Origin: Polaromonas sp.
GTDB taxonomy: Bacteria > Pseudomonadota > Gammaproteobacteria > Burkholderiales > Burkholderiaceae_C
DNA: 64,000 nucleotides
Direction: 5' to 3'
NCBI GenBank assembly: GCA_030655515.1
Contig: JAURVI010000026.1
Coordinates: 1 to 64,000, forward strand
The position numbers were made by a program, and so were the translations under genes. The notes beneath the pieces were generated by a model. The model made no database searches. It was not told the origin of the DNA and saw only the letters and a list, made by a program, of their open reading frames with translations. This document shows positions 141 through 6,186 of the stretch, one piece after another. Every line of letters begins with the position of its first letter. The first letter of the stretch is position 1.

Positions 141-242
141 ACCTCACGGGCATTCGACAAGCCGAAGTCGGGGCGGATTGCGGTGAAGGTCATCAATCAC
201 CTGGGGGATGAGGTGATGAAGGTGTTTAAGGTTGCGAGTTAA
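141..242 (+). pseudogene. C-terminal remnant of a DNA methyltransferase-like protein
   Basis: Directly after the IS end, one frame stays open to TAA 240-242 and reads ...SGRIAVKVINHLGDEVMKVF. From memory this resembles the extreme C-terminus of site-specific adenine DNA methyltransferases (type III Mod-like) found in restriction-modification loci. There is no start codon and the rest of the gene is missing, so the simplest reading is a gene split by the IS3 insertion. The family assignment rests on a short motif and should be treated as likely rather than certain. Confidence 0.5.
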
Positions 243-277
243 AGTGGGCGCGACTTACCAGGGAAGAAGAGAAGAAA

Positions 278-2440
278 ATGAACAAAAAGTCGGACCGATT
301 TTCGGTATTGAAAAGTTATCCAGATATCGCTCCATTCGTTGAACAAGTAGTGTCTTCGGCGGATCAGAATAAGAACGCATTGGGATTCTTCGCCGCGAGT
401 GTCTTCCAGGAGTTTGCACGAAGTGAGCAACTATATGTCGTCGCGGAGACGAGCAGTGAGGAAGCGATATATGCAGGCCACTTGATGTTCAAGTGCAATC
501 GCGGTAAGGCGAGCGTACTTCAAATGTTTATTGCCCCATCCTTTAGAAGATGCGGCGCAGCAAAAATACTGCTTGATGGTTTGAAATCTCATTTGACCGA
601 CCACGGCCTAATTTCCATCTCTGCACGCGTCGCAGAGGACTTAATAGATGCCAATGCATTTTGGGAAAAGCAAAACTTTTATGTGCAGCGTGTCGCACAG
701 GGCGGCACCGCTCGTAAGCGCACGATCTTGGTTCGCTGCCACGAACTTGCATCTCCACAATTGTTCGCATCGAGTGGGCTTTCATCCACAAATCCTTTGG
801 GTCTTGATGTCACGGCCAACCCAGATATCCCATTGTTTCTGTTGGACCTGAATGTCCTGTTTGATCTCGGACCGCGACGTCTCCGCAACGAAGAGGCCAT
901 TGATCTGTTTCGGGCAGAGCGAATGGGGCTATGCCGTTTCGCCATCAGCTCCGAGCTGGGCGCGGAGTTGCATCGAACGGCTACACCAGGCCGGACAGAT
1001 CCGATGCAGGCTTACACAAAGATATTTCCAACTTTTTCATTGATGACGACTGATGAGTGGAAACAGTTGCTTCCCGATCTTGCTTCCTTGGTTTTCCCCA
1101 ACAAAGAGGCCACGCAACTCAGTGAGAACGACAAATCAGACCTCCGTCACCTAGCAGCGGCAGTTCAACATCGTTTGGCAGGATTCATTACAAATGACAC
1201 AGCCATTCTCGACGCGGCCACAAAAATTAAAGAACAGTTCAACATACAAGTTATATCCCCTATGGCGTTTGCACAGAGCTATGCAGAAACGACCTCGGGT
1301 GACGCTTACGACACATTGTCATCGCAGACGTTGGAATTGATACCAATAACGGATGCAGACGGGCCTGTAGTCCAAGCATTACTCTCAAGGCTCAATTTGT
1401 CTGGCTCCGCGATCGCCTCAAATTGGGCAGCCGTTGATTCGGGTGATCGCGTATTTGCCCGCTACGGCGTCTGGAGCGGTGTCCGATTGCTGGGCTACCT
1501 GACAAGGCCCTGCTGGACTCCCAGCGACATAGTCGTGGCACATATCGCAATTGACGAATCTACCGCACATTCGCGGGATGCAACCCGTATTTTGCTTACC
1601 AGTTTTTTGGAACAAATGATAACGGTGGGTACCGTTCAAGTCAGAATCGAGTTCCCTCCAAATCAAGTTTACGTGCGCGAAGTGGCTTCGGAGTTGGGAT
1701 TTGGTGGTACATCCACTCAGTCATCCCTCAGCAAGATCATTCTTGGACGTATCGTCACTCGAACAAACTGGGATCAATGCAGAGAAACTCTCACTTCTGC
1801 AAGTCGACTGCGGCTGCCAGATGTGCCTCCCACTTTTCGACACATTAGCCAACAGGTTCAAGTATTAACCCCGGATGGGAATAGGGTTCATGTTTCGCTG
1901 GATTATCTGGAGACGCTTTTAGCACCGGCACTTTTTTGCCTACCAGGGCGCCAAGCGGTGATCACACCAGTGCAACGCGATTTTTCTGAGCATCTCTTAG
2001 GGCATCTACCGCAGAAATCGTTGTTACCGCAATCTAAAGTCGCGCTATATCAAGAGAAACACTATTTGAGTGGCCCACAGACTTTGAAGCGCTTCAAACC
2101 TGGGGCTTTGATTTTGTTTTATGAGTCATTGAAACACAGAGGACTCGGTGCGGTCATTGCCATCGCTCGGGTAAAACAGGTGTATGCAAAGTCGCAGGAG
2201 GCACTCAAAACCTCAGGTCTCGATCCCTCTGTCCTTGACGCAAAAAGCCTCGAAACTATAGGCCAATCCAGTATGAAAACAGTGACAGTTTTTGATAACG
2301 TAATTTGCTTGCCGCACCCCGTTCCGCTTACTACGCTAGAGCGCATAGGTTGTGGCCGCCCCACCGACTTGATAACAACTAATGCCATCACTGATGAGCA
2401 ACTGCAAGCGATTCTTGTCGAAGGGTTGACCTGTGATTGA
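278..2440 (+). CDS. GNAT-PIN-GNAT-PUA-like multidomain protein
   Basis: This 720-residue protein appears to fuse several small-domain families. Residues about 50-155 look like a GNAT acetyltransferase (acetyl-CoA loop around FIAPSFRRCGAAKILL). Residues about 184-335 look like a PIN ribonuclease domain with candidate acidic residues D190, E226 or E230, D288 and D307 (TNDTAIL). Residues about 355-500 look like a second, degenerate GNAT fold. The end, from about 588, resembles a PUA/ASCH-type RNA-binding domain. It overlaps the next gene, also an ASCH protein, by 8 bases, so the two are probably co-translated. Base composition is clearly AT-richer than the core genes further right, suggesting transfer. 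A toxin or defence effector acting on tRNA or other RNA is a plausible but unproven role. The start at 278 follows a GAAGAAGAGAAG purine run. Confidence 0.7.
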   Translation: MNKKSDRFSVLKSYPDIAPFVEQVVSSADQNKNALGFFAASVFQEFARSEQLYVVAETSSEEAIYAGHLMFKCNRGKASVLQMFIAPSFRRCGAAKILLDGLKSHLTDHGLISISARVAEDLIDANAFWEKQNFYVQRVAQGGTARKRTILVRCHELASPQLFASSGLSSTNPLGLDVTANPDIPLFLLDLNVLFDLGPRRLRNEEAIDLFRAERMGLCRFAISSELGAELHRTATPGRTDPMQAYTKIFPTFSLMTTDEWKQLLPDLASLVFPNKEATQLSENDKSDLRHLAAAVQHRLAGFITNDTAILDAATKIKEQFNIQVISPMAFAQSYAETTSGDAYDTLSSQTLELIPITDADGPVVQALLSRLNLSGSAIASNWAAVDSGDRVFARYGVWSGVRLLGYLTRPCWTPSDIVVAHIAIDESTAHSRDATRILLTSFLEQMITVGTVQVRIEFPPNQVYVREVASELGFGGTSTQSSLSKIILGRIVTRTNWDQCRETLTSASRLRLPDVPPTFRHISQQVQVLTPDGNRVHVSLDYLETLLAPALFCLPGRQAVITPVQRDFSEHLLGHLPQKSLLPQSKVALYQEKHYLSGPQTLKRFKPGALILFYESLKHRGLGAVIAIARVKQVYAKSQEALKTSGLDPSVLDAKSLETIGQSSMKTVTVFDNVICLPHPVPLTTLERIGCGRPTDLITTNAITDEQLQAILVEGLTCD

Positions 2441-2957
2441 AGGGGAACACATACTCATTTCGTTGGAAAAACGGCACGCGGAGAATATCTTCGCAGGAAA
2501 AAAGCACGTAGAGTTAAGGCGGCGGTCTATGAATGTAGCTATCGGAACCACGGTTTGGATATACGTCAAATTGCCTGTGGGTTCCGTGATGGGCAGGGCT
2601 CGCGTTAGCGCAGTTCATAGCTTGGCACCATCAACCTTGTGGCGGCGCTTCGCTGCTATTTCTGGGTTAACGTATAAGGAATTTTGTGGCTATTTCGAAG
2701 GAGTCTCCAAGGGGTTGGCACTTTCTCTAGAGGATGCAGAGCGACTCCCGCAGTCGATTTCTCTACAAACCCTTAGACAAGTCTCATCTGGATTTCAACC
2801 CCCACAATTTTTCATGCGACTTGGTGTCGGGGGTGACTTACTCAATACTTTGACAGAATCGCAGAAGAACGTCTGTGCAGCGTCAGATGATGCCCGTGAC
2901 ATTCAATACCGGCCGGGTCACGCGAAGTGGGACAACTTCCTGAACAGGATTGTGTGA
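2433..2957 (+). CDS. ASCH-domain protein
   Basis: This 174-residue protein starts at GTG 2433 inside the end of the preceding gene. Its N-terminal half, with ILISLEKRHAENIFAGKKHV followed by a run of arginines and a beta-rich stretch ending near residue 65, fits the ASCH fold (PUA superfamily), which binds RNA or modified nucleotides. The C-terminal half is not recognised. ASCH proteins next to GNAT and PIN domains are reminiscent of toxin-antitoxin or RNA-modification modules. Because the upstream protein also ends in a PUA-like domain, the two may recognise the same substrate or form a complex. The function is inferred only from domains and position. Confidence 0.65.
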   Translation: MIEGEHILISLEKRHAENIFAGKKHVELRRRSMNVAIGTTVWIYVKLPVGSVMGRARVSAVHSLAPSTLWRRFAAISGLTYKEFCGYFEGVSKGLALSLEDAERLPQSISLQTLRQVSSGFQPPQFFMRLGVGGDLLNTLTESQKNVCAASDDARDIQYRPGHAKWDNFLNRIV

Positions 2958-2958
2958 T

Positions 2959-3015
2959 ATGAGCAAGAACCCAGAAAAAGTAACAATAGCCAGCCAGAAC
3001 GGAGTCCCCGAATGA
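2959..3015 (+). CDS. Possible 18-residue leader peptide or gene remnant
   Basis: A short frame starts at ATG 2959, one base after the ASCH stop codon, and ends in TGA 3013-3015, which overlaps the ATG of the OLD-type gene (ATGA at 3012-3015). It would encode the 18-residue peptide MSKNPEKVTIASQNGVPE. It is too short to assign. It could be a translational-coupling leader for the downstream gene, the start of a deleted gene, or chance. The precise spacing on both sides is the only argument for translation. Confidence 0.3.
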   Translation: MSKNPEKVTIASQNGVPE

Positions 3016-4751
3016 TTACCCGATTGACCCTGCGCAACTTCAAGAGCGTTGGTGAACAAGTCTATGACTTCACTCAGTTCGATTTGCTGGTCGGGCGCAA
3101 CAACAGTGGCAAGAGCACCGTGCTTCAGGCGTTGGCTATCTGGCAATTTTGTGTGGATGAGTTTCATCGGTCCAAGCGCAGCGGCTCCAAGGGAATCCAA
3201 GTCGTACTGCCCAACTTCACGGCGTTGCCGGTGCCGGAGTTCAATCTGCTTTGGAAGGACAGAGATATACGCCACTCGCCTAACAAAAAGCAGGAATACA
3301 TCCTGATAGGCATTCATGTGGAATGGCAGCGTGCAAACGGCGAAACCGGAACGTTTGGTGTGGATTTGCGCTATCACTCACCACAAACCATTTACGCCAT
3401 TCCTGGCGGTGGCTGGACGCAGTTTCGCGCCTGTGAACAGAGGGGTGATCTGCCCATAATCGCCTATGTGCCCCCGTTTTCCGGCCTTGAACCGACAGAA
3501 AAAGCGCTGGATGTTTCACCCATCCGCCAGCAGGTTGGCAAAGGTCAACCCGGCAGCGTGCTGCGTAACTTGTTGTTGCGGGTCTGCCCAGCACCACCGC
3601 GCGATCCGAACGGACGCATTGTCAAAGGGTATGAACACCCACCCGCAGACTGGCAAGAGCTGGCCAACATGGTTGAACGCTGGTTTTCGGTCAAGATTAG
3701 CGAGCCGAAATATGACTCAGCCAAAGATGTTTACATCACGGTTGAGTATCGCCAGAACGGCAAGAACTACGACATCATCGCCGGGGGGAGCGGGTTTCAC
3801 CAAACACTGACCTTGCTGGCATTTCTGTATGGCTACAAGGCGACGACTATTTTGCTCGACGAACCAGATGCCCACTTGCACGTCAATCTGCAACGTGAGA
3901 TTCTTGATTTCTTCAAACGCAAGTCACTCGAACTCGGTACGCAATTCCTGATTGCCACGCACGCTGAAGAGTTCGCTCGTGGTGTGGATGCAAGCCAAAT
4001 CATCTCATTGCTAAACCGCAAACCCAAGCGAATCGATTCGACACCAGCCGTACTTCAGGCGATGGCAGACGTGTCCAACGAGGACGTGACGCGATTGCTG
4101 GGCTCTCCCTACATCCTTTATGTGGAAGGCGAGAGTGACGAGCGCATTCTTCGTGCATGGGCCGAGTCGTGTGGAGCGCAGGAGGCGATGGACAAAGTCT
4201 GCTTTAAGACGATGGGTGGTGGCGGAAAGAAAAACATGAAGGAACGGGCTGATCTGCACTATGCCGCTCTGCAGCACATCATTCCCGAGGTATCGAGACT
4301 CATGCTGTTCGACTTTGACGACGCCAACGATGCGTTTCATCCAAAGCCCGGCAACCCGTCGCTTGCCGAGTGGAAGCGCAAGAATATTGAAAATTATCTG
4401 CTCGTATCTGACGCATGGAAGCGGGCTGCACTGCAGCAACTCGGATACGCCGAAGATGAGTTGTTCGCTGAGCCGATTCTGAAATCTATTGACGAGTTTT
4501 TTGCCGGGGAAAACCTGACGCTGCCGCCAGGAAAAACTTGGCGAAATGTCGGTGCGAACGTGTTCAGCGTGGTGGATGGCAAGCGCATTTTGTTTGAAAA
4601 CAACGAGTCTCTCTTCCAGCAGCTTAAAAAGGGAGCTCCCCCTGTGCAACTCATTCGTGAACAGGTGGCGATGAGCATGACGGCTGATGAAATTCACGAG
4701 GATGTTCATCAGTTTATTGGTAAGTTAAAGGCGTTGACCGGCCAACCCTGA
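3012..4751 (+). CDS. OLD-family ATPase with TOPRIM nuclease domain
   Basis: This 579-residue protein has an N-terminal SMC/ABC-like ATPase: Walker A GRNNSGKST at residues 28-36, a signature-like GGSGFHQTLTLL at 258-269, Walker B ILLDEPDAHLH at 280-290 and an H-loop ATHAEE at 315-320. A C-terminal TOPRIM domain follows, with YVEGESDERIL at 370-380 and LFDFDD at 432-437. This is the architecture of overcoming-lysogenization-defect (OLD) nucleases, which act in phage defence alone or with partners (for example Gabija GajA). No UvrD-like GajB helicase follows. It sits within two bases of the small frame after the ASCH gene, so it may form one operon with the GNAT-PIN and ASCH proteins. The length is normal for class 1 OLD proteins. 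Confidence 0.85.
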   Translation: MITRLTLRNFKSVGEQVYDFTQFDLLVGRNNSGKSTVLQALAIWQFCVDEFHRSKRSGSKGIQVVLPNFTALPVPEFNLLWKDRDIRHSPNKKQEYILIGIHVEWQRANGETGTFGVDLRYHSPQTIYAIPGGGWTQFRACEQRGDLPIIAYVPPFSGLEPTEKALDVSPIRQQVGKGQPGSVLRNLLLRVCPAPPRDPNGRIVKGYEHPPADWQELANMVERWFSVKISEPKYDSAKDVYITVEYRQNGKNYDIIAGGSGFHQTLTLLAFLYGYKATTILLDEPDAHLHVNLQREILDFFKRKSLELGTQFLIATHAEEFARGVDASQIISLLNRKPKRIDSTPAVLQAMADVSNEDVTRLLGSPYILYVEGESDERILRAWAESCGAQEAMDKVCFKTMGGGGKKNMKERADLHYAALQHIIPEVSRLMLFDFDDANDAFHPKPGNPSLAEWKRKNIENYLLVSDAWKRAALQQLGYAEDELFAEPILKSIDEFFAGENLTLPPGKTWRNVGANVFSVVDGKRILFENNESLFQQLKKGAPPVQLIREQVAMSMTADEIHEDVHQFIGKLKALTGQP

Positions 4752-4795
4752 TAGATCGCAACCGCATCGCCCACATGCTCACAGCCAACCGACCC

Positions 4796-4981
4796 ATGAC
4801 AGCCCCCCAACAATTCCTGATCTACCAAAGCGAAGACGGCTCCATCATCGAGCCCTTTGTGGCCAGCGTCGGCTTTATCGCCAACGAAGAAGGCCGCGAT
4901 TCCAAGCTGCGCAATCTGGGCATCGAGCCATACCGGGCCGAAAATGGCCGCGTGGCCGCGCTTGACAAGGGGGGCGCGTGA
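4796..4981 (+). pseudogene. Chimeric remnant: RhuM-like start joined to a JetC-like tail
   Basis: The frame from ATG 4796 gives 61 residues. The first part, MTAPQQFLIYQSEDG, resembles the N-terminus of virulence RhuM-family proteins. The rest, from about IIEPFVASVGFI to RNLGIEPYRAENG, resembles the C-terminal tail of the SMC-like Wadjet ATPase JetC. Its TGA overlaps the GTG of jetD, as expected for jetC-jetD coupling. I infer that a deletion fused a rhuM start to the last codons of jetC and removed jetA, jetB and most of jetC. Both assignments are from short matches recalled without a search. Confidence 0.4.
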
Positions 4982-6186
4982 GCTGGACGACCCCTGCAGA
5001 CCTGCGCGCCCAGGTGCAAAAACTCTGGGACCGGGGCCAGTTGCTGACGCCTGCAAGCCAGGGGGGCGCGGCGTTTCCCCTGCGCTTGCGGCTGGCAGGG
5101 CCCACATCGGCGGAGCTGTCAGAGCGCTTTGACGAGGTGCGGGCCTGGATTGTCGATTTGCGCCAGGGCACGCCGCGCCTGCGCATCGTGCAGCGTGAGT
5201 TTCGTCACCGCGTGCTGGGCGTCAACGCCGTGCCCAGTGAAGCCTGGCTCGACACGGCCGGCGACGCGCTGGCCTTGATTGGCAAGCAACAGGAAGCCCG
5301 GCGCTTTGCCGGTCTGCTGCAAGCCACCCAGGCGCAGCACGCGGCACTGCTGCCCTGGCTGGAAAAGCGGCCTTTGGCTGCGTTGGCGCTGGCCGATGCG
5401 TGGCCGCGCCTGCTCAGTGTCGTCTCATGGTTGTGCGCGCACCCGCGACCGGGTATTTACCTGCGCCAGGTCGATATTCCCGGTGTGGACAGCAAGTTCA
5501 TGGAGTCGATGCGCGGCGTGCTGATGGCGCTTCTGGATTTGGCGCTGCCGGTCGATGCCATTGACCGCAGCGCCACCGGCTCTTCCGGTGTCGGCCAGTT
5601 TTGCCGCCGCTACGGCTTTCAGGACAAGCCCCTGCGCATCCGTTTTCGCCTGCTCGATGTCCGGTTGGCGCTGTTGCCCACCGGAGCCGATCAGGACATG
5701 AGCGTGACCCAGGCCGCTTTTGAGCGGCTTGACCTCCCCGTCAGCCGGGTGTTTATCACCGAAAACGAGGTCAACTTTTTGGCTTTTCCACAGATGGCGG
5801 GCAGCATGGTGATCTTCGGTGCGGGTTACGGCTTTGAGGCCCTGGCGGGTGCCCGGTGGCTGCAACAGCGCAGCATTTACTACTGGGGCGACATTGACAC
5901 CCACGGCTTTGCCATTCTTGACCAGCTGCGTGCGCAGCTTCCCCATGCGCAATCGTTTTTAATGAACAGCGAAACCTTGATGGCCCACGCGGCGCACTGG
6001 GGCGAGGAGCCGCAACCGCTGCTGCGTGACCTGGAACGCCTGACTAGCGACGAGCGCGCCGTGTTTGACGCGCTGCGCGACAACCGGCTGCGCCCGCGCT
6101 TGCGGCTGGAGCAGGAGCGCATCGGCTTTGGCTGGGTGCAGCGGGCACTGGCTGAGTTGCGGGTGACAGGGGGTCAGGATGAATAA
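4978..6186 (+). CDS. jetD: Wadjet nuclease subunit JetD (DUF3322/DUF2220), orphan
   Basis: This 402-residue protein fits JetD, the TOPRIM-like endonuclease that cleaves circular plasmid DNA once the JetABC SMC complex has extruded it. The N-terminal half matches the DUF3322 arm domain. The C-terminal half (DUF2220) carries TENEVNFLAF with E262 and E264 and WGDIDTHGF with D305 and D307, fitting an intact metal site. The GTG start overlaps the upstream remnant stop by two bases, and the end overlaps cbiB by 8 bases. JetA, JetB and a full JetC are not present in the window, so plasmid defence by this locus alone is unlikely. The gene itself looks full length, so it may have been kept recently or reused. 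Confidence 0.8.
   Translation: MSWTTPADLRAQVQKLWDRGQLLTPASQGGAAFPLRLRLAGPTSAELSERFDEVRAWIVDLRQGTPRLRIVQREFRHRVLGVNAVPSEAWLDTAGDALALIGKQQEARRFAGLLQATQAQHAALLPWLEKRPLAALALADAWPRLLSVVSWLCAHPRPGIYLRQVDIPGVDSKFMESMRGVLMALLDLALPVDAIDRSATGSSGVGQFCRRYGFQDKPLRIRFRLLDVRLALLPTGADQDMSVTQAAFERLDLPVSRVFITENEVNFLAFPQMAGSMVIFGAGYGFEALAGARWLQQRSIYYWGDIDTHGFAILDQLRAQLPHAQSFLMNSETLMAHAAHWGEEPQPLLRDLERLTSDERAVFDALRDNRLRPRLRLEQERIGFGWVQRALAELRVTGGQDE

Follow-up and report, generated by a model that had tools for sequence, protein, structure and literature searches.

A conserved GNAT-PIN-GNAT-EVE and ASCH gene pair in Polaromonas sp., apparently a divergent relative of the (PIN)-GNAT-EVE modules, with an OLD-like gene as neighbour

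In the Polaromonas sp. contig JAURVI010000026.1 (positions 1-64,000, hereafter the window; the genome is 84.8% complete), three closely spaced genes raise the question of whether they form a single system or separate modules brought side by side. These open reading frames (ORF), namely ORF1 (278-2440), ORF2 (2433-2957) and ORF3 (3012-4751), lie on a common strand with an overlap of 8 bases between the first two and a gap of 54 bases (2958-3011) before the third. A first-pass annotation, whose coordinates were confirmed down to a mini-frame within the gap, had described them as a GNAT-PIN-GNAT-PUA fusion, an ASCH protein and an OLD-type nuclease forming a candidate operon unlike any described system known to it. 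Our analyses establish ORF1 and ORF2 as a conserved pair which, on sequence grounds, is a divergent relative of the module formed by (PIN)-GNAT-EVE proteins with an ASCH gene (PMC7641849; PDC-M11 in PADLOC), while ORF3 looks like a separate OLD-like nuclease gene, found in defence operons of different kinds.

Relatives of ORF1 were studied at 58 loci, corresponding to 54 from a genome collection, three viral contigs of IMG/VR and one further locus (L014), five duplicates from genomes of the same family having been dropped; most come from bacterial genome contigs. An ASCH gene occurs directly 3' of ORF1 in 53 of the 58 (52 detected by tblastn and the one of L059 by eye), and four loci with no detected ASCH gene (L051, L052, L066 and L068) end inside ORF1 near a contig end. 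The two genes overlap in 46 of the 48 loci in which both frames are open, with start codons that we chose, and the ORF1 and ORF2 distances are correlated over 39 loci (r = 0.93, shared species history being left in). The close coupling of ORF1 and ORF2 first noticed in the window was borne out. The distribution is scattered: of 399 genomes belonging to the same family, 7 contain an ORF1 relative (the genome under study included), and a search of 72,556 plasmid records gave a single one; none was found in 50,697 phage records, and a single-protein scan of viral contigs was also empty.

ORF1 (+ strand, 720 amino acids (aa)) presents the order GNAT1-PIN-GNAT2-EVE/PUA-like, as indicated by Pfam, PADLOC, a predicted model and an alignment, with domain limits that we set from the model and the alignment at ca. 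5-160, 184-335, 345-510 and 535-718, respectively. The alignment comprises 44 fused proteins, that of the window and 43 of the 58 relatives. The other 15 relatives were set aside as fragments, as frameshifted, fused or near-duplicate copies, or because the start of the row was unclear. GNAT1 matches Pfam PF00583 at residues 46-134 (E 6e-7). The PIN domain was undetected by Pfam in the protein of the window itself; PF13470 matches three relatives (L009, E 3.6e-5; L067, E 1.8e-4; L073, E 2.6e-6), with only the match of L073 above cut-off, and the PIN of the ORF1 clade aligns with the canonical PIN in a profile comparison. Its acidic residues D190, E230, D288 and D307 (845-1198, + strand), which we take to be catalytic by likeness to other PIN domains, are intact in all 44 proteins, the first three being invariant as D, E and D and the fourth position being either D or E (37 and 7 proteins). 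The GNAT2 fold is supported by a fold search with the isolated region and by profile comparison; in the whole-model fold search the VIA-align rows were filled by GNAT1, and ZmASCH structures were listed (5guq_C, TMt 0.81) without being tied to a given region. The C-terminal EVE/PUA-like part is matched by PDC-M11A of PADLOC over residues 561-716, and by Pfam EVE at only E 0.25. The acyl-CoA loop occurs in its relaxed form in GNAT1 of 42 of the 44 proteins; in GNAT2 it is seen in one protein in its strict form and in two in its relaxed form. GNAT2 is the least conserved part of the protein (0.257 vs 0.415-0.438). The initial reading of the domains was borne out, the TOPRIM part of ORF3 by motif only.

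Bell, Wolf and Koonin 2020 (PMC7641849) describe (PIN)-GNAT-EVE proteins as nearly always accompanied by an ASCH gene and often by an AAA_17 ATPase, predict toxin-antitoxin or defence roles for them, and indicate that none of these modules is experimentally characterised. A combination of PIN, GNAT and EVE with ASCH was thus already in print, and in PADLOC as PDC-M11, so that the initial view that no described system holds this set could not be kept. The PIN, GNAT and EVE domains stand in the same order in ORF1, the ASCH gene adjoins it, and the homology runs from end to end: in a profile comparison, the 44 fused proteins and eight canonical proteins align over PIN, GNAT and EVE with a probability of 99.2 (E 1.9e-19). 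With PDC-M11, ORF2 matches M11B (E 8e-25), whereas ORF1 matches M11A in its EVE part, is ca. 220 aa longer than any M11A profile encountered (501 positions at most), and is matched over a stretch that misses the GNAT part of the profile.

The pair departs from these modules by the extra N-terminal GNAT of ORF1, by an internal GNAT devoid of the GxKxGE motif, and by the lack of a detected AAA_17 gene. AAA_17 was found near 10 of 12 canonical loci, near none of the 58 fused loci and not in the window, in a test made with eight queries and flanks of at most ca. 7 kb; the majority of the canonical hits fall in the loci from which the queries were taken, and three of the canonical loci are close duplicates. 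Because the loop of the internal GNAT occurs in 2 of 44 fused proteins when compared to 8 of 8 canonical ones, in which it reads GxKxGE, the pair is filed here as a variant rather than as a plain member. In a quick tree, in which long branches may mislead, fused and canonical proteins are split by one branch with a Shimodaira-Hasegawa-like approximate likelihood ratio test (SH-aLRT) value of 99, and since all fused proteins fall on one side of it, one fusion of the N-terminal GNAT would be enough. This variant with a second, N-terminal GNAT may be new, as judged against the text description, rather than the figures, of the modules of Bell et al. Within the open-licence literature searched, the name PDC-M11 is absent, "PIN-GNAT-EVE" occurs only in PMC7641849, as does the association of ASCH with toxin-antitoxin and PIN, and no paper published since 2021 was found that links ASCH to both phage defence and an acetyltransferase; the portions available of PMC10853773 and PMC12839542 do not describe the pair.

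ORF2 (2433-2957, + strand) starts with GTG and encodes the ASCH partner, a protein of 174 aa. It matches PDB entry 5guq (E 8e-19) in addition to M11B, its Pfam ASCH match (E 0.0025) is below cut-off, and a search with its extra C-terminal tail (ca. residues 143-174) gave no convincing match. The closest solved relative is ZmASCH of Zymomonas mobilis (5guq; profile E 5e-38), which is reported to cleave single-stranded RNA weakly, with Tyr47, Lys53 and Ser128 as important residues (PMC5615036). Across the ORF2 family, Tyr47 is kept as Y44 in 41 of 41 proteins, whereas Lys53 is replaced by Gly in 30 (Lys in 2 of 41) and Ser128 by Phe in 34 (Ser in 2 of 41); because these two residues are mostly replaced, the weak RNase activity is not transferable to ORF2. 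Another ASCH protein, YqfB, removes the acetyl group from N4-acetylcytidine by means of Thr24 (PMC6972931). Its Lys21 and Arg26 are kept in ORF2 as K24 and R29, whereas Thr24 corresponds to E27, a Glu in 41 of 41, and ORF2 was rejected as an N4-acetylcytidine amidohydrolase of the YqfB type because of this replacement of the nucleophile. We read ORF2 as a probable binder rather than an enzyme, although it may have some other enzyme activity. Among the relatives, L067 (3549-6128) carries the ORF1 and ORF2 homologues naturally fused in one protein of 859 aa. Two loci, L035 (10041-9670) and L076 (5180-4806), have an additional, divergent ASCH gene immediately after the pair, encoded on the other strand.

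What could such a pair do? We give roughly an even chance (ca. 0.5) to ORF1-ORF2 being an RNA-cutting, toxin-like effector module used in phage defence by growth arrest or in addiction, marked by the GNAT fusion, the decay of GNAT2 and the missing AAA_17, with ORF3 as a separate gene. The features behind it are the pairing, the homology, the one-sided clade, the intact PIN residues, the lost GNAT2 loop and the lack of ORF3 and AAA_17 near the relatives; the RNA cleavage, its target, the sense of any inhibition between the partners and the defence role are all putative. An N-terminal GNAT would have been fused to the effector, and the internal, older GNAT would have lost its acyl-CoA loop and become a scaffold. 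The PIN domain would cleave RNA, with tRNA as a first guess, and its cutting would be guided or held back by EVE and ASCH through recognition of a modified base or of damaged RNA. GNAT1 would bind acetyl-CoA, either as a sensor or for acetylation of this RNA or of aminoacyl-tRNA. As a tentative extension, to which we give lower odds, the fused GNAT may have taken over the acetyl-CoA function from the decayed copy and AAA_17 may have become unneeded, which would result in a self-contained RNase with its cutting under the control of acetyl-CoA and of two domains that read modified bases.

Several observations weigh against the effector reading. ORF2 lacks the Thr nucleophile of YqfB and two of the three RNase residues of ZmASCH, the PADLOC match of ORF1 is weak (E 8e-10) and confined to the EVE part, and the absence of AAA_17 derives from eight queries, short flanks and canonical hits that are mostly own loci. 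In one locus (L044), a stop lies inside ORF1 and no ASCH part was found in the remaining 268 bases. The GNAT1 loop is strict in only 26 of the 44 proteins, and a Trp is found in 37 of 44 at the position of the Tyr that plays a role in RimI-type enzymes, for which reason GNAT1 may bind acetyl-CoA and yet not be an ordinary acetyltransferase. A search of the open-licence literature yielded no experimental study of any member of the module.

The genomic setting adds to these points, as the immediate neighbours of the relatives are mostly ordinary genes. They were scanned with a rough G+C-based (guanine plus cytosine) gene picker, at most two genes per side, in loci L021-L076 and with no background control; 14 near-duplicate or similar loci were dropped, L014 and L077 are also outside the scan, and 139 of 141 picks were used, one ORF1 fragment and one pick antisense to the ASCH gene being excluded. 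Among the best 25 of 92 PADLOC families, none matches more than two of the 139 neighbours at E 1e-10, and in Pfam the commonest matches are to LysR regulators and to a different GNAT family, with four neighbours each. Eleven Burkholderia/Paraburkholderia loci share one chromosomal spot by LysR-like and permease-like genes, the count referring to downstream genes in 13 Burkholderia-type loci, with L044 and L057 as the exceptions. The loci at this spot are L022-L028, L033, L047, L053 and L055, a setting unlike a mobile defence island. Defence islands as the general setting of the pair are therefore unsupported by its immediate neighbours. The refuting conditions named in the first-pass annotation came half true: the pair is widespread without the OLD gene, ORF3 being found in none of the 58 loci, and mostly without recognised defence neighbours, but the PIN residues are kept in 44 of 44.

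Some loci do have a setting of interest. In L075 (6773-9359), the pair is the cargo of a prophage, which we label P2-like, and is located between the primase (replication) and tail genes. In L034, it lies directly behind a type III methyltransferase, and in L021 one gene intervenes. Both of these type III loci hold a further gene between the restriction gene and the methyltransferase (971-2062 in L034 and 2675-3235 in L021), which looks Fic-like or ORF6N-like. Since a general island signal was not seen, the case for defence is built on the known kind to which the pair is related, on the restriction-modification and prophage cases, and on the patchy spread.

Among the alternatives, the one that fares best, although we hold it unlikely, is a plain toxin-antitoxin or addiction module with a PIN or GNAT toxin in ORF1, an antitoxin in ORF2 and no dedicated anti-phage role. 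Bell et al. class this kind under toxin-antitoxin systems (PMC7641849), and a small gene overlapping a larger toxin-like one, a scattered distribution (the 7 of 399 family genomes above) and mostly ordinary neighbours would all suit it. However, the ASCH-effector fusion of L067 suits a subunit better than an antitoxin, the architecture of ORF1 is complex for a VapC-type toxin, and one copy is the cargo of a P2-like prophage. Typical antitoxins, to our knowledge, are also not PUA-like domains of this kind.

Modification or repair of RNA or DNA bases, with acetylation read by EVE and ASCH and faulty RNA removed by PIN, would turn the pair into a quality control rather than a toxin, which we regard as rather improbable. 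Base acetylation was proposed for this kind by Iyer et al. 2013, as reported in PMC7641849, GNAT1 carries most of the acyl-CoA loop, and the deacetylation of N4-acetylcytidine by YqfB (PMC6972931) offers a parallel within the ASCH proteins; the Glu found in 41 of 41 at the nucleophile position and a patchy distribution that ill fits a housekeeping function nevertheless argue against it. An action of a prophage-carried pair against host restriction or against the counter-defence of other phages appears very improbable: the position of the L075 copy and the three IMG/VR loci among the 58 are in its favour, but nothing was matched among the phage records, the relatives stem mostly from contigs of bacterial genomes, and a type III methyltransferase precedes the pair in L021, L034 and the window. 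The least probable of all is that the three genes form one defence system, since the tight spacing, the same strand and the common AT-rich composition, as well as the OLD-type ATPases paired with PIN RNases that PMC12839542 reports as auxiliary effectors in BREX settings, are outweighed by the absence of ORF3 from 58 of 58 homologous loci (flanks of at most ca. 7 kb), by ORF3 relatives elsewhere with the same leader, and by the TOPRIM motifs and the different third-position G+C that are proper to ORF3 (0.617 vs 0.498 in ORF1).

ORF3 (3012-4751, + strand, 579 aa) encodes an OLD-like AAA ATPase (AAA_15, E 2e-20) and is here considered as a neighbour outside the pair. No Pfam TOPRIM match was obtained; a TOPRIM domain is presumed from its motifs, VEGESDE at residue 371 and DFDD at 434, which align in L098 and L099 and partly in L101 and L102. 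In PADLOC, ORF3 matches NsnB (E 5e-26), AriA of PARIS (7e-20), Old (2e-14), GajA (5e-14) and PtuA (7e-14), but these matches are only partial, and no GajB, AriB or other partner lies beside it. In particular, the GajB helicase neighbour typical of Gabija is absent, ORF3 being flanked by ORF2 and by a jetC remnant followed by jetD. ORF3 occurs beside none of the 58 ORF1 relatives (flanks of at most ca. 7 kb, shorter in many). Its own relatives were found at E 1e-20 in 20 of 399 family genomes (the present one included), three of them at 68-73% identity, and at the same threshold a plasmid search gave no match. The proposal of a single three-gene system is further weakened by two of the three close relatives residing in other defence operons: in L098 (7056-8870), 54 bases separate the relative from a type III methyltransferase ahead of it, and in L100 (region 211-5551) a copy broken by an internal stop has an almost complete jetC on one side and, on the other, a jetD truncated where the contig ends. 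The neighbours in L099 are not obvious defence genes, and in L102 a more distant relative is flanked by a methyltransferase and by a gene that weakly matches type III restriction genes. ORF3-type genes seem to insert themselves into defence operons immediately after a stop codon, as seen in L100, L098 and the window (2958-4751).

The gap upstream of ORF3 corresponds to a leader (2958-3011, + strand) that is common to the relatives of L098 and L100, and not clearly to that of L099. It holds a frame of 18 codons (2959-3015), the TGA of which overlaps the ATG of ORF3; this frame is open in L100, with 10 of 18 residues identical, but broken by a stop in L098. It thus belongs to the ORF3 leader and is not a strictly kept peptide; a conserved peptide is not supported. 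Upstream of ORF1, the 3' end of a type III DNA methyltransferase is left as a remnant (141-242, + strand), recognised by PADLOC MTase_III PDLC03632, of which positions 953-983 of 983 match 141-233, and by identity at both levels: 141-232 is 89% identical in DNA to the end of the L098 methyltransferase (8966-8875), and in L021 and L034 the methyltransferase that precedes ORF1 has 90% aa identity to the remnant. Elsewhere in the Polaromonas genome, as far as the 84.8% complete assembly goes, the profile meets only methyltransferases of 27-32% identity. Because the methyltransferase end and the ORF3 leader, which are neighbours in L098, stand apart in the window around ORF1-ORF2, the pair looks inserted between the methyltransferase and ORF3.

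Downstream, a 3' remnant of the Wadjet gene jetC (4844-4981, + strand) shows 76% aa identity at 4844-4969 to residues 1010-1051 of the JetC of L100, and is followed by a full-length jetD (4978-6186, + strand; PADLOC JetD1, E 3e-150; Pfam JetD_C and DUF3322). The remnant is the sole JetC match in the genome at its 84.8% completeness, so that no complete JetABCD was seen here, JetA and JetB being outside the search. Of the flanks initially proposed, an IS element and a Wadjet remnant, the latter stands as the jetC 3' end with its jetD, the IS element being reduced to a presumed transposase C-terminus at 2-124. The AT-richer composition already pointed out was likewise recovered and looks foreign, with 49.7% G+C in ORF1 and ORF2 and 53.0% in ORF3 vs 63.0% over 6187-64000, where none of 112 windows of 2162 bases is as low as ORF1. 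A promoter scan gave hits not above those of shuffled sequences, and 11 terminator-like sites were counted against a shuffle mean of 6.2. Overall, the locus is a stack of pieces from several defence-related modules, for which the sequence of events proposed above is a deduction.

What looks in a single genome like an orderly defence operon can thus be made of stacked separate modules, which bears on predictions by guilt-by-association. For the predicted modules themselves, the clade described here should make testing easier, with two genes and no AAA_17 ATPase in sight, and it provides a natural contrast between a GNAT that has mostly kept its acyl-CoA loop and one that has lost it.

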